The notes under the pieces are model-generated. The model made no database searches and was not told where the DNA came from. It worked only from the letters and a program-made list of their open reading frames with translations. DNA of 20,764 nt from a virus, in the IMG/VR virus record IMGVR_UViG_3300009181_000438, positions 1 through 20,764 of that record; one strand, 5' to 3'. Below, in pieces: positions 5,120-12,490 of this stretch (positions within the stretch are counted from its first letter, which is position 1; each line of letters opens with the position of its first letter). The position numbers and the translations under genes were made by a program.

Positions 5120-5374
5120 TCAACACTTCCATCTTTTAAGAGCTGCTTTAGCGCGTTCGCCATCTTTGGCGTTGGCCGCTACAGCGCCCATTCTTGCACA
5201 AAATGAATCTTTGCGGCCTTGATCGGCCTTGGTCTTAGGACTAGGTGCTGGCGCTTTAAGGTTAGAGCCTGTCTCACGGTTGTACTTTTCGCGCCCTTTG
5301 GCAGTTAACCCTGCGCCTTTGGCTGTAGATAGTTTCTCACCACGACCCACACTAAGAGATACACTTTTCTTCAT
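5120..5374 (-). CDS. DUF6321-like small phage protein
   Basis: An 84-aa protein when started at MKKSVSLSVGRGEKLSTAKG. Characteristic blocks are GLTAKGREKYNRETGSNLKA, then FCARM and ERAKAALKRWKC at the C-terminus. This matches a small basic phage family that I recall as DUF6321, often adjacent to TerL. I chose the ATG at 5374 because it overlaps the terminase stop as ATGA. An upstream in-frame ATG at 5386 would lie inside terminase. Two Cys (FCARM and the terminal C) are family features. Function is unknown; a packaging or head-assembly role is suggested only by position. Confidence 0.78.
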   Translation of the reverse strand: MKKSVSLSVGRGEKLSTAKGAGLTAKGREKYNRETGSNLKAPAPSPKTKADQGRKDSFCARMGAVAANAKDGERAKAALKRWKC

Positions 5375-6894
5375 GCGCCCATCCATCCAGTTGAGGCCGA
5401 GTTGCCATAACTAGCAACACGACGTGTAGGTTCGACATACTCACGGTGCGCAACAGGAAAAGCAAACGTCACCGCTATTGCATCCGCTGCGTCAGGTGAA
5501 GCCAGACCCCTTGATTTCATATCTTTTTTGCTTTCCAAAAAGATTGTTCCACGTGAATCAGGCTTCATCATAGGTGAAATCAAATCAGTTTTCAAGAACC
5601 GATCTGACGGAATACTAGCAGATTTCAACCATTCGCGCATCTCGCCCCACATCTGAGCTCGCATGTTACCGTACATAATCGGGTTTTTGGCCTTGTTGCC
5701 AAAATTTACACCTTTGATTTTATACCGCTGTTCTTTCAACCTGTCCACAATACCTGCACCCAACCCACCCTCATCAATTACAACCAAGGCGGGTTTAAAC
5801 TCTTCAATCGCCTCAATCACGTGACCCACTACAGTCATCGTGTCGTCCCCTCTGTGGCGCATAATCTTCACAATATCGCGCCCCTGTCTCACCGCTATCA
5901 CTGTTGCATCCGCGCCAAAGCGCGCAGGGTCTACACCAATAATAATGGGCGCTGACTGATCCTTGTACTTAACGCGTTTCATCGCGTCGTCCACAATATC
6001 AGCGCCAATGAACTGATCATCCCCCGCGTTGGGGAACATACCGTAGACCTCAACGTGCGCTTGCGCCGAGTCAGGCCCATACTCCGCAATAATCTGTGTA
6101 TAAACTTGTTTGTCTGTGCCTTCGACCTCGCGCGCGTCCACCACCTTGGTTGTCCAAAACTCGCGTTTGGAGTTAAAGCACTCGTAAAAGTACCCCGTGT
6201 TGCGCCTGGGGTTAGAAAACGCTAACCAAAAGCGGTTAGGTGTGTTTTCTGTAAAAAATCCACTGGTCACCGCCCAAATAGTGTCGTCAATACCGCTAGC
6301 CTCATCAAATATCACTAGCACACCATCAAAGTTGTGCACACCCGCGTACGCGTCGGGGTTCTCCGCCGACCACAGCCGCCCTTCCACGCCCCAGTAACGC
6401 GTGCCTTTTTTCAAATCGCGCTCAACCAGCTCAGTCAGCCATTTTGCAGGCGTCACCCGTGTGGCCGACACTTCAAACCAATGGCTGTTAATTGACATTG
6501 CCAACCACTTAGTAATCTCGGCCCACGTAATCGAGCGCAGTTGATTCTCACTGTTAGCAGAAATAATCGTAGACGAGCCAATCCGTGTAGCCGCCATCCA
6601 AATTGTAATCCAACTTACCAACGCCGACTTGCCAATACCACGCCCAGACGAGATAGCTTCTCTTAACGTATCAAAATCTGCTTTGCCGTTGTTGGCCTTG
6701 ATGTGCGAGGCCATGTCTTGCAAGACATCGCGCTGCCATTTGCGCGGTCCTGTGAAATGCTCTAGCGGCGTGCCTTTGACACCCCACGGAAACACAAACA
6801 TTACAAACGCCAACGGGTTGTCTTTGAGCGCAGGCGCCCAAAGTCTAGCCATTAACTCTTGTTCGTCTTCAGCGCTGTATTTGGTCGTTTGCAT
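5371..6894 (-). CDS. terL: Terminase large subunit (ATPase and nuclease)
   Basis: A 507-aa DNA-packaging motor. The ATPase half has a Walker A GRGIGKS (about 84-90) and a Walker B VLVIFDE with D197 and E198. The RNase H-like nuclease half shows VDPA with D322, VVIDEGG with D374, and SPDAADA near 467-472, supplying the metal-binding acids. It would cut concatemeric DNA and pump it through the portal using ATP. The gene overlaps the small terminase by 26 bases and runs into the next gene by ATGA. The length is normal for a complete TerL and no key residue is missing. Confidence 0.95.
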   Translation of the reverse strand: MQTTKYSAEDEQELMARLWAPALKDNPLAFVMFVFPWGVKGTPLEHFTGPRKWQRDVLQDMASHIKANNGKADFDTLREAISSGRGIGKSALVSWITIWMAATRIGSSTIISANSENQLRSITWAEITKWLAMSINSHWFEVSATRVTPAKWLTELVERDLKKGTRYWGVEGRLWSAENPDAYAGVHNFDGVLVIFDEASGIDDTIWAVTSGFFTENTPNRFWLAFSNPRRNTGYFYECFNSKREFWTTKVVDAREVEGTDKQVYTQIIAEYGPDSAQAHVEVYGMFPNAGDDQFIGADIVDDAMKRVKYKDQSAPIIIGVDPARFGADATVIAVRQGRDIVKIMRHRGDDTMTVVGHVIEAIEEFKPALVVIDEGGLGAGIVDRLKEQRYKIKGVNFGNKAKNPIMYGNMRAQMWGEMREWLKSASIPSDRFLKTDLISPMMKPDSRGTIFLESKKDMKSRGLASPDAADAIAVTFAFPVAHREYVEPTRRVASYGNSASTGWMGA

Positions 6895-7279
6895 CTATGA
6901 CTTCAATAACGCGCGTTTGCGCTTGTTGCAGTGCTTGCGTGATGGAGATGCGCTGATCCACTTCAACCGATATAGCTTGCTTGGCCACCCAGCCGTGTTG
7001 GTGCTTCAATATCTCAAGCGCTGCTTTAGAGTCGCCGTCGTTGGCTGCCTTGTGCAATATGCGTGACATCTCTATTTCGCCATCAGCTTTACCCTTAGCC
7101 TGGGCCATCTCCGCAACTGGGTCGAGTTGGCACAGTTGCCTATATTCGGTTGGCAACATGCCTGCCGCTAACGCAAGCGTATCGCCTTTGAGCCCTAACT
7201 TTGCGGCGTCATATATGCGTTGCAGTCGTGACTCAGTCGCAACAACTTGACGCGGTGTAAAAGGTAAACTTTGAAACAT
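6869..7279 (-). CDS. terS: Terminase small subunit
   Basis: A 136-aa, helical, Gln/Ala-rich protein immediately before TerL and overlapping it. The N-terminal half (about 10-60) has the look of a helix-turn-helix DNA-binding region (RLQRIYDAAKLGLKGDTLAL). A central oligomerisation-type stretch (about 58-95) and a C-terminal helix of Gln and Val follow. Small terminases recognise the packaging site on phage DNA and regulate TerL. The ATG at 7279 is the first possible start, because an in-frame TAA lies 9 bases upstream. No Shine-Dalgarno is visible, and an extended -10 box ends only a few bases upstream. The call depends on position, size and composition. Confidence 0.8.
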   Translation of the reverse strand: MFQSLPFTPRQVVATESRLQRIYDAAKLGLKGDTLALAAGMLPTEYRQLCQLDPVAEMAQAKGKADGEIEMSRILHKAANDGDSKAALEILKHQHGWVAKQAISVEVDQRISITQALQQAQTRVIEVIDANDQIQR

Positions 7280-7284
7280 GTGGC

Positions 7285-7293
7285 TTTATACCA
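7285..7293 (-). promoter_or_regulatory. Extended -10 promoter for the packaging/head operon
   Basis: On the minus strand TGGTATAAA reads as an extended -10 (TGn plus TATAAA). Upstream (7294-7318) is a nearly pure A/T tract that could act as an UP element. No convincing -35 is present. A start site about 7 bases after the -10 would fall at the TerS ATG itself. The promoter is predicted from sequence only. Confidence 0.45.
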
Positions 7294-7483
7294 TAAAAAA
7301 ATAAATAAAAAATAAATTGTTTGCAAGCCCTCCGTCGCTGTGACCTCGGTCGCTCGGCCCTTGGCCGGGGCCTCGAGCAAAAAGCCGATTTCCATTGGGT
7401 CAATTTGTCAAATTGTCAATCGATTTTATGCCGGCGCTTCGCGTCATGCGGCCGGCAGCCGCGTGCTAGTTGCTGGCGCCGCC

Positions 7484-7567
7484 GGCCGGTGGCCATGCGG
7501 CCATATGGCCATGCGGCCGGCGGCCGGTGGCCATGCGGCCGGCGGCCGGTGGCCATGCGGCCGGTGG
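7484..7567. repeat. GC-rich 22-bp tandem repeat
   Basis: The unit is GGCCGGTGGCCATGC followed by GGCCGGC. A first copy at 7484-7502 is interrupted by ATAT, creating the perfect palindrome GGCCATATGGCC (7499-7510). A partial unit follows at 7507-7521, then a full copy at 7522-7543 and a nearly full copy at 7544-7562. The block is almost pure G and C inside an otherwise AT-rich intergenic region and can fold on itself in many ways. It may be a packaging, origin or recombination site, or simple slippage expansion. Confidence 0.85.
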
Positions 7568-7573
7568 CATTGT

Positions 7574-7610
7574 GTCAAATTGTCAAATTATTATCTTTTG
7601 ACAATTTGAC
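7574..7610. repeat. Perfect 14-bp inverted repeat
   Basis: GTCAAATTGTCAAA (7574-7587) is followed after a 9-base spacer by its exact reverse complement at 7597-7610. Each arm contains two of the 8-base repeat units, so this is two arrays facing each other. As RNA it would form a 14-bp, AU-rich stem. As DNA it is a natural dimer-of-dimers binding site. No T tract follows on either strand, so it is not a terminator. Confidence 0.85.
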
Positions 7611-7893
7611 CTAAAATAGAATTATGGGTTTTTTGCGTGCGCGTGGTGGTTTTGGGTTTTTAGGTCAAATTGTCAAATTGTCATGCCGGAAAAATCCGCT
7701 CACACAACGCACGCCTATATTCATATTGTATACAATGTGTAATTCTACTAAGGTATATATAGAATGACAATTTGACCTAATACTATATATTTTCACTCGT
7801 ACGCGCGTTAGGTCATTCGCGCCGATTATCGTGACAATTTAACGACCCAAACAACCCAAACTAGTATTAGGGTAAACACCTATAAAATAACTA

Positions 7894-7921
7894 TTGACAA
7901 TGTAAGATATACCCTTACAAT
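7894..7921 (+). promoter_or_regulatory. Sigma70-type promoter for the rightward cassette
   Basis: TTGACA (7894-7899) and TACAAT (7916-7921) are separated by 16 bases, with a perfect -35 and five of six matches at -10. Transcription would begin near 7928, about 48 bases before the first ATG at 7976. The -35 overlaps a degenerate copy of the TGTCAA repeat family (TTGACAAT), so a repeat-binding protein could repress it. This is the strongest promoter seen in the window. Confidence 0.7.
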
Positions 7922-7953
7922 ATATATACCGGCGCAAGATCGCGGCGGCATCA

Positions 7954-7967
7954 ACTAAACGAAAGTA
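7954..7967 (+). promoter_or_regulatory. Repeated gene leader ACTAAACGAAAGTA, copy 1
   Basis: This 14-base sequence lies 8 bases before the ATG at 7976. An identical copy precedes the next gene (8222-8235), and a variant with AAGGG (8953-8966) precedes the third. Copy 1 has only weak Shine-Dalgarno character (GAAAG). It may be the ribosome-loading sequence of this operon or a protein-binding leader. Confidence 0.6.
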
Positions 7968-7975
7968 GAATCAAA

Positions 7976-10171: not shown

Positions 10172-10200
10172 AGGGCCCCATAATCGGGGCCCTTTTTTTT
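10172..10200 (+). terminator. Strong intrinsic terminator
   Basis: AGGGCCCC (10172-10179) pairs with GGGGCCCT (10186-10193) around ATAATC, followed by eight T. This ends the rightward cassette. The T tract overlaps the stop codon of the opposing primase-helicase gene (10199), so the two convergent operons meet here. The reverse orientation has only a weak T run, so it is mainly one-way. Confidence 0.9.
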
Positions 10201-12490
10201 ACTTGACGCGGACCATGCCAAAGCTGGGCCCGTCTTCGACCATCCTGCGCAAGTCTGATTTTTTGCTAGTGGCCAAGTCAGGCGCGCAAAAAATATGCTT
10301 TTTACTGGGGTAATCGCCTGACGCCAAGCGCCCACAATCGATCCAACCGGCCTCTTTAAGCGCGTGTAGTAGTGCGGCCTGGGGAACCTTAACGCCTGAT
10401 GGCGCGGCGCCTGCCAGGCGGTCGCATAGCGCGTGAAAGGGTGATCCGATAACGCCTTTAGAAAACTCGCCGAGTTTATTGCGCATCATCTCGACCAGAT
10501 AGGACTCGGCCAAACTCATGCCATGCTCGATTAGATTTAATTTAAATTCAGTCAACATCGGCGGCGCTGATGGGTTGAACGCTGCTACATCCCTCTGATG
10601 CAACCAACTAGCGATCGCGGCGAAGCCGCCGGCCTTGTACCAGGTCCACATCTGATGCGCAAGCGTTGGCTCCATGCGTGGGGCGTGCGACCATACTGCA
10701 AACCATCGGCGATCTTGAGTGTCTAAGGAGATGGGCACCGGATCGTTAGAAAACGCAAGCACAAACATGCGGTTAACCATCATGTAAGGATGCAGCCCTT
10801 TGCGGTTGATCGGGAGCATCTCAGGGGGCGCGGCGATGATGGGTTTTAACTTGTTGGCAAGCGCTCTTCGCTCTTTCGCGTCGGGCTCTTTTAACTCATT
10901 AATAATCAAGATCTCAGATTCAAGCTGATAGCCCCACTGGCTGCCCAGCGTATCGTTGTCAAGTAAACCCCTGTTTTTAAGATGCGATCCGCATACGGCC
11001 CAAATGAACGGCGCCCACATGGTGTCTTTACCTGAACCCTGGTCGCCTGCGTGCAATACGGCATGATTGATTTTGATCTCTGGGTGTTGGACCTTGAAGG
11101 CCATCACATCGAACAAGTGCTCAAGCTCTCGCGGATCGGGCACAAGCGCGCGACAGTGCGAAAGCCAAGGCTCCACATCGCCTGCGCCTGCTACGGGACG
11201 CGCGTCGCGCCACCGGTTGCCGTAGATGTCACCATCGCGCGCGACGAGCACCGTTTCGCCTGCGGCGTAGGTGATGCCGACAAGCGCCTTGGCGCCTTTG
11301 ACTTGTCTGTTCTCGTCAAAACATATTGACGCCTCTATTTTGCGCCCATTGTGAATTGATTTGCAGGGGATATGACGAAACAAGGCGTTGAAGGTAGAGC
11401 GCGACACTTCGCGCCTGTCGTACATGTCAAAATAAGATTCGTCGTCTTGTACGTATGCAAAACGATCGTACCAGTCGGCCTTCTCGATGCGTCCAAGCTC
11501 TTTGCGCTCGACCTCGGCAATCACGGCTGCAGCGTCATGCGTGAACATGTCGGAGGGTTTTAGCTTGGCGAGCGTGCGCTCCATGGCCGCTGCGAGTAAC
11601 TCATCACGCAAGCCATGCTGATGACGTGGCCCGCCCTGCTCTTCGACCCATTTAAGGTACTTGGCGCTGCCCCACTCGGCGCAGTGCTCATGCAGGCAAC
11701 AGTACGAGCGATTAAGTGGGTGATACCGACCCATGGGGTTGCCGTCGCTATGCTCGGAGCTGTTGGGACAAATGACGCCCCACCAACCCGACGCATTACC
11801 GCGCTCGATTAAGTCGCCGCGCTCGGCGATCCATGCAAGCACGTCGTCGTCGCCGTCGTCTTTGATTCTGATCGGTCCAAGACTAGCTGAGTCTGCAGGC
11901 TCAGGCACGACGCCAAGCGCGTCGCATATTTGAGCAAGGGTGAACTCGCGCGCCTGATCGAATTCGACGAGCGCGGACACAAAATTGTCGCGCCCAGGCT
12001 TTAAGTTGATGGACCCTGGCAAACGAAAGTTGCGCACCGCGTTGATGGCGCCCCCATCGGTGTAACCTGCAATGGCGATGGCCTTGATGGCAGCGCTGAA
12101 GTCTGCTTTGGTCGGTTGATCATCAAGCGCAAACGTGTAACCCCATTGATAGTTATTGGGCGACGTCTCGATCTTCCATGTGGGCGCAAGCGTTGGCACT
12201 TTGGCCTTGGTACCCACGTCGTCAAGCACAAGAAACGCGACGTGCTCGCAGTTGGCTGCGCTCGCGGATACTTTGCCGTCTTTAAAGCGCTCGACAATAA
12301 AGCAGCCGGTGTTGCCGTACCATGCAGCGCCCGCTTTCCATCTGCTGGGCAGATAGGCCGGCCATGTGCACTTAACTGCCCCATCTGCGTGGTATTGTTG
12401 CGCGCCATCAACAAGAATCGGCTTTTGTTTAACAATTAACGTAGTTTCGCCTTCAGGGGCGATTGATGTGATATATTCCAGAAATTCCAA
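10199..12490 (-). CDS. Primase-helicase fusion (AEP primase, zinc finger, D5-like ATPase)
   Basis: A 763-aa replication protein. The N-terminus (about 80-165) has archaeo-eukaryotic primase-like motifs: VLDDVG near 88-93, TSPNNYQW near 109-116 and RLPGSINLK near 156-164. A Cys/His cluster (C241, C264, C265, H267, H269, C270) may bind zinc. The C-terminal ATPase has Walker A GDQGSGKDT (482-490), Walker B ILIINE (527-532) and a sensor-like FSNDPVP, as in DUF5906/D5-type helicases. It would prime and unwind DNA for the adjacent polymerase. The start is TTG at 12490, with AAGGAG 7 bases upstream; no ATG fits as well. Confidence 0.88.
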   Translation of the reverse strand: MEFLEYITSIAPEGETTLIVKQKPILVDGAQQYHADGAVKCTWPAYLPSRWKAGAAWYGNTGCFIVERFKDGKVSASAANCEHVAFLVLDDVGTKAKVPTLAPTWKIETSPNNYQWGYTFALDDQPTKADFSAAIKAIAIAGYTDGGAINAVRNFRLPGSINLKPGRDNFVSALVEFDQAREFTLAQICDALGVVPEPADSASLGPIRIKDDGDDDVLAWIAERGDLIERGNASGWWGVICPNSSEHSDGNPMGRYHPLNRSYCCLHEHCAEWGSAKYLKWVEEQGGPRHQHGLRDELLAAAMERTLAKLKPSDMFTHDAAAVIAEVERKELGRIEKADWYDRFAYVQDDESYFDMYDRREVSRSTFNALFRHIPCKSIHNGRKIEASICFDENRQVKGAKALVGITYAAGETVLVARDGDIYGNRWRDARPVAGAGDVEPWLSHCRALVPDPRELEHLFDVMAFKVQHPEIKINHAVLHAGDQGSGKDTMWAPFIWAVCGSHLKNRGLLDNDTLGSQWGYQLESEILIINELKEPDAKERRALANKLKPIIAAPPEMLPINRKGLHPYMMVNRMFVLAFSNDPVPISLDTQDRRWFAVWSHAPRMEPTLAHQMWTWYKAGGFAAIASWLHQRDVAAFNPSAPPMLTEFKLNLIEHGMSLAESYLVEMMRNKLGEFSKGVIGSPFHALCDRLAGAAPSGVKVPQAALLHALKEAGWIDCGRLASGDYPSKKHIFCAPDLATSKKSDLRRMVEDGPSFGMVRVK

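Follow-up and report, generated by a model that had tools for sequence, protein, structure and literature searches.

A P22-like podovirus carries, beside its terminase genes, short repeats in both orientations that are, with a probability of about 0.85, the iterons of a replication origin; the phage's AEP-SF3 helicase-primase would be the initiator and would bind them through its predicted winged-helix tail. The spelling of the repeat unit tracks this one protein, an AEP primase fused to an SF3 (DUF5906) helicase, and specifically its residues 723-729; we infer that the interval holding the arrays acts as the origin. The window, the whole stretch of 20,764 nucleotides that was analyzed, is a 20.8-kb IMG/VR virus record assigned to a P22-like podovirus. 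MW202483 is the closest named record; phage DSL-LC05 is close in terL only. A search of bacterial genomes returned relatives on two MAG contigs only. The minus strand carries terL (5371-6894) and the putative terS (6869-7279), which starts 115 bp left of the arrays, and also encodes the DUF5906 helicase-primase, a family A DNA polymerase and a PD-(D/E)XK/DUF2800 nuclease. From terS to 7975 there are no conserved genes, in keeping with the gene-free stretch described in a first-pass annotation: all ORFs in 7280-7975 are short and unconserved. A short rightward operon follows beyond 7975, driven by a sigma-70-like plus-strand promoter outside the array (TTGACA-16-TACAAT, 7894-7921). The degenerate repeat that had been read into the -35 element at 7894 is a coincidence; it is simply the TTGACA hexamer, shared by three relatives with quite different units (L014, L056, L013), and the overlap was rejected as a regulatory link since TTGACA is present there irrespective of the repeat unit.

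The plus strand carries array 1 (ATTGGGTCA + ATTTGTCA + AATTGTCA, 7394-7418, 8-bp period), array 2 (ATTGTGTCA + AATTGTCA, 7569-7585) and array 3 (TTTAGGTCA + AATTGTCA + AATTGTCA, 7659-7683); the minus strand carries the pairs TTTAGGTCA + AATTGTCA (7599-7615) and ATTAGGTCA + AATTGTCA (7765-7781) and a degenerate unit, TGACAATTTAAC (7832-7843). Both the phased arrays in two orientations and the period of 8 within them (7399-7419, 7573-7589, 7664-7683), as first proposed, are thus borne out. Each set opens with a 9-mer-like unit (TTTAGGTCA, ATTGGGTCA, ATTGTGTCA) and continues with 8-bp AATTGTCA units. The minus pair at 7599-7615 sits inside a 20-nt arm (7597-7616) that matches 7658-7677 perfectly as an inverted repeat. 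An 81-bp candidate melting region (7684-7764), 70% A+T over its last 60 bp, separates the last plus array from the minus pair that follows. As in iteron origins, the window thus holds several short direct repeats, partly tandem, in a non-coding stretch.

Chance scatter of the element across the genome is contradicted by its distribution: seven copies of AATTGTCA fall inside 7390-7850 (461 bp) and two in the remaining 20.3 kb, an approximately 150-fold difference in density. Searching the window for the 13-mer GGTCAAATTGTCA with at most one mismatch returns seven matches, all within 7398-7777, and none for its reversed control. A loose 9-mer search (one mismatch) gives 13 matches against 7.8 expected, a small excess, and the signal therefore comes from the way in which the units cluster and are arranged in tandem or in pairs. 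Between arrays 1 and 2, the window also contains GC-rich imperfect tandem repeats (7478-7568) that can be read as 22-bp units, GGCCATGCGGCCGGCGGCCGG, or alternatively as about nine degenerate 8-bp units, GGCCATGC; in three relatives (L014, L017, L022), the matching position is occupied by repeats of the CATGTGGCCATG or TGTGGACCA type. These GC-rich repeats are possibly decayed or second-type units.

Among the loci of 80 relatives collected in a first scan (terL 85-100% identical), the window's exact element is mostly absent, and arrays with a spelling of their own were therefore searched for. A second scan extended the set to 160 loci, and about 300 related viral loci were covered overall. Most of them have their own tandem array of 9-bp (some 8-bp) units, in both orientations, in the same gene-poor stretch upstream of terS. 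Conservation in relatives, set as a test by the first-pass annotation, therefore has two sides: the element itself is rarely kept, while the architecture and the matching protein are kept and the letters change. The units include TGTGGACAA, TGTAGGCAA, TGTTGGC(A/T), TTTGGGTCA, TGTGGGCCA and TATGGACAA, among others, and the period is almost always 9. Neighboring cores stand 9 bp apart in 73 GTGGACA and 114 TGGGTCA cases; a spacing of 8 is seen for GTAGTCA (13 cases), ATTGTCA (4) and ATTGCCA (2), in the group around the window. One member of this group, L120, repeats nearly the window's composite, (T)AGG(G)TCAAATTGTCA; the two helicase-primases are about 72% identical. The unusual binding protein first expected from the 8-bp period is not needed: head-to-tail units of 9 (or 8) bp are usual in these phages, and the proposed reader is the winged-helix tail of an ordinary AEP-SF3 helicase-primase.

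The layout is conserved as well. Each of eight near-complete records has a single cluster of cores, with 9-12 exact cores per 700 bp against 0.04-0.19 per 700 bp elsewhere. The strand order, plus units towards terS and minus units away from it, scores 682 against a mean of 585, above all 1000 strand shuffles. In all 71 loci with a plus-gap-minus arrangement of 60-170 bp, the last 60 bp of the gap exceed both flanks in A+T, with a mean of 75% against 51% and 57%. These figures derive from metagenomic contigs and from a core pattern picked from exploratory data; in 4/84 loci, GTTGGC(A/T) arrays were assigned to the wrong strand by the first core caller (xxxGxCA), and a stricter caller left 16/96 and 25/74 loci uncalled; of the new loci, it could not call about one-third. 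No clear array was seen within the searched kilobase of L030, and an Rfam search gave no match. GC skew, suggested earlier as a check, does not support an origin here: in the eight near-complete records the cumulative extremes lie several kb from the array. On the terS side of the arrays, six relatives (L011, L013, L015, L020, L031, L043) carry a second, near-palindromic repeat family, GTTAGTG(G/A)(C/G)CACTAAC / GTTAGTGAGCACTTAC, spaced about 28-29 bp and absent from the window; these repeats are perhaps operators. The interval upstream of terS in DSL-LC05 (L089) contains tandem 8-bp GTGGGTCAGTGGGTCA units at 22651; this phage has an annotated primase/polymerase gene and is itself not among the listed helicase-primase protein matches, and another initiator may read a similar origin there.

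Only terS, terL and the helicase-primase accompany the array in essentially every locus that is long enough. The helicase-primase gene, which would encode the initiator, lies on the minus strand at 10199-12490. Its DUF5906/SF3 domain is recognized by Pfam (PF19263, E 1e-10) and matches the NrS-1 helicase (6k9c) by both sequence and fold; the full model also matches poxvirus D5-type helicases and, weakly, the SaPI5 primase-helicase (7ola, E 0.46). The N-terminus is AEP-type by fold (6zp9, 3h20, 3h25; E 5e-5 to 4e-4), with matches to S-2L PrimPol and RepB', and it hits Pfam RepB_primase below the cutoff only. An AlphaFold2 model built from 42 members has an overall pLDDT of 67, with 83-91 in most blocks of residues 660-750. 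The predicted order of elements in this part is helix 660-670, strand 680-682, helix 685-695, helix 704-713, strand 717-722, a loop, strand 731-735 and helix 744-752, and the C-terminal domain modeled alone adopts the same fold. Residues 660-752 (10235-10513, minus strand) are thus predicted to form a winged helix, in which the variable residues 723-729 would be the wing; helix 704-713 is nearly invariant. A PDB fold search with the C-terminal domain returned nothing significant (best E 0.32, a MarR-type repressor), a PDB sequence profile search nothing credible, and Pfam nothing.

When the proteins are aligned by unit class, a short segment near the C-terminus of the helicase-primase varies with the class, as confirmed on 160 loci. 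In the window, this segment is the putative wing LASGDYPSKKH (residues 722-732; 10295-10327, minus strand), in which residues 723, 725 and 728 covary with the unit. Wing KSR goes with TGTGGACAA (core GTGGACA), KSS with TATGGACAA (core ATGGACA), (V)AS(S/G/A)D..S with TTTGGGTCA (core TGGGTCA; 39/39), M(S/C)R with the 8-bp TGTAGTCA (core GTAGTCA), and ASA(E/D)YM with the 8-bp TATTG(C/T)CA (core ATTG(C/T)CA); AS(G/H)DYPS, found in the window and L120, goes with the 8-bp AATTGTCA (core ATTGTCA), ASR..(S/G)T and YSREYAT with GTAGGCA, and ASREYQT with GTTGGC(A/T). When every column of the two proteins, helicase-primase and TerS, is scored by mutual information with the unit, helicase-primase residues 728, 723 and 741 rank first, followed by 502, 719 and 725; most of the best-covarying columns lie in or adjoin the wing, and the best TerS column is at background level. 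Two correspondences stand out, Arg725 with G at unit position 2 (the first core base) and Lys723 with A at the variable base (the fifth core base).

The two correspondences recur independently. In a phylogeny of 84 loci built from the protein minus its C-terminus, Arg725 and G switch jointly in 7/7 independent pairs on supported branches and never in the opposite sense (sign test, p = 0.0156); Lys723 and A likewise switch jointly in 7/7 independent pairs (p = 0.016). Two clades with only 63-69% identity between their protein bodies share the KSR/TGTGGACAA pairing. In L132 and L144, conversely, the helicase-primase bodies are 98.2% identical and the TerS proteins fully so, yet the former combines ASAEYMN with ATTGCCA (8 bp) and the latter YSREYAT with GTAGGCA (9 bp); L093 and L094, 97% identical, pair KSRDYDT with GTGGACA and ASSDYPS with TGGGTCA, respectively. 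Because wing and unit differ together within such near-identical pairs, TerS and the general background are excluded as the cause. The covariation suggests that the repeats are specific for the replicon's own initiator, as in iteron origins. The residue code is local to the window's phage family, because the 53% identical helicase-primase of MW202483 (L088), which has a 9-bp TGT-type TGTTGGTAG array in the early region (23450-23471), has a wing, GMCFAPELSTKRH, with Pro rather than Arg at the matching position. A 69% identical helicase-primase is encoded on a MAG contig labelled actinobacterium (L329, CAILBF010000201.1; the host label of the bin is uncertain); its wing, ASRDHTTRKH, and the TGTAAGCAA repeats of that contig agree with the Arg-to-G rule.

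Two further scans, made after the rules had been fixed, provided 49 callable loci with new C-termini. Lys723 correctly predicts A at core position 5 in 48/49, and Arg725 predicts G at core position 1, as pre-stated, in 41/49. All eight failures of the Arg rule carry the Arg-bearing wing ASREYQT. One of them has an ATTGAC call; the units of the other seven are T(A/G)GGTCA, and these seven failures arise because the strand-rule caller misaligns TG(T/A)GGTCA-type units by one base. Anchored at the 5' end (T-x-T-N-G), the unit in these loci is TGTGGGTCA or TGTAGGTCA. Site by site, the base preceding T(A/G)GGTCA is T in 257/258 with Gly725, T or A in 85/87 with Ser725, and G in 92/96 with Arg725. 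After re-anchoring, which was post hoc and followed the failures so that this rescue is not blind, the Arg rule holds in essentially all new loci.

The same observations bear on what else the arrays might be. They adjoin terS in a P22-like phage group, as a packaging site (pac or cos) bound by the small terminase would, but L132 and L144 carry different units with an identical TerS and TerS columns covary at background level only, making this the least credible of the alternatives. Hardly more credible is the idea that the units are host DnaA boxes. It arises from the commonest unit, which on the opposite strand reads TTGTCCACA, a DnaA box sequence in many bacteria; other members, however, have TTTGGGTCA, TGTAGTCA, TATTGCCA or AATTGTCA, far from any DnaA box, and unit changes follow the wing of a phage protein. 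As a general account, DnaA boxes are excluded by these divergent units that track the wing. In relatives of the KSR class (e.g., L014, L077, L113), TGTGGACAA is TTGTCCACA on the other strand, and software for origin prediction could misidentify these phage iterons as DnaA boxes. MW202483, whose relatives bear DnaA-box-like units, has a gene annotated 'dnaa protein helix-turn-helix' at 31423-31719.

The helicase-primase could instead bind the arrays mainly as an operator or copy-control element that represses divergent promoters, with the origin elsewhere. The array does lie between the leftward packaging genes and the rightward promoter at 7894-7921, and covariation reveals the reader, not its task. 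Many opposed units around an AT-rich stretch, a single cluster per genome and a helicase-primase as the reader nevertheless amount to the anatomy of an origin, and PICI origins look alike (PMC6092414); this account is improbable, though less so than the two above. The first-pass annotation had offered origin and operator as alternatives; the candidate origin is strongly supported by the covariation with the helicase-primase and by the AT-rich stretch amid opposed arrays, the operator is without positive support, and autoregulation through the arrays is compatible with the data.

The repeat units of phage P4 are short and lie in both orientations. In P4 alpha, one polypeptide combines primase and helicase with a winged helix at the C-terminus; the winged helix binds origin repeats, and the protein then unwinds and primes (PMC4234260). 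The window's protein likewise joins a primase, a helicase and a C-terminal, here predicted, winged helix. However, the P4 primase is TOPRIM (PMC4234260), whereas no TOPRIM primase domain is found in the window's helicase-primase, whose N-terminus matches AEP; membership of the P4 alpha family is therefore not claimed. A further contrast with the P4 alpha winged helix is that no solved structure significantly matches the window's C-terminal domain. In the Pri-Rep origins of PICI/SaPI, two iteron sets flank an AT-rich region and a primase/Rep module initiates (PMC6092414). The window shares two iteron sets around an AT-rich region and a primase-helicase as the proposed initiator; the satellite origin, however, lies just 3' of rep, while the window's, in a P22-like phage and with abutting 8- or 9-bp units, would be separated from the proposed initiator gene by 2.3 kb.

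In the RepA_N system of PLE from Vibrio cholerae, the iterons and the initiator DNA-binding domain covary and have been repeatedly exchanged, and only cognate pairs replicate, as determined experimentally (PMC8263062). Repeats and the putative DNA-binding region of the proposed initiator also covary and switch repeatedly in the window's group, here by computation. By contrast, PLE RepA_N belongs to another protein family and has about 30-bp semi-palindromic iterons and two specificity groups; the phages have at least six, traced to single wing residues. NrS-1 polymerase, the nearest solved helicase, shares the AEP + SF3 DUF5906 architecture: an AEP-type primase-polymerase is joined to an SF3 DUF5906 helicase, and the protein recognizes an 8-nt sequence, TTTGGTTA, thought to mark the origin (PMC7102993, PMC8718748). 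Unlike the arrays of the window's phage, tracked by a C-terminal wing, this site is present in two copies and is read as primase template by the N-terminal part.

In the mechanism that we propose, wing residues 723-729 would read the variable bases of each unit, and the hardly varying neighboring helix would probably supply constant contacts. Head-to-tail units in two opposed sets would then load two SF3 rings flanking the AT-rich stretch, which would melt between them; the rings would unwind and prime outwards, with replication starting at the array site, and the family A polymerase would extend the primers. P4 alpha is described as acting in this manner (PMC4234260). Beyond this, it is a tentative suggestion, at somewhat below even odds, that the initiator wing acts as a module on which there is strong pressure for change and which switches together with the origin repeats to bar use of, or attack on, the origin by foreign elements, and that the residue-to-base code (Arg725-G, Lys723-A) resides mainly in the wing and not in the recognition helix. 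If so, co-infecting phages, satellites and origin-targeting nucleases would be kept off each other's origin. For a large group of uncultured freshwater phages, an anonymous repeat becomes a proposed origin with a named initiator, and approximately 130 natural matched or switched protein-DNA pairs with single-residue correlates allow direct tests of how initiators and origins recognize each other, how this specificity evolves and what part it plays in phage-phage exclusion. The results suggest that origins of other AEP-SF3 phages may be found from wing-repeat covariation alone.
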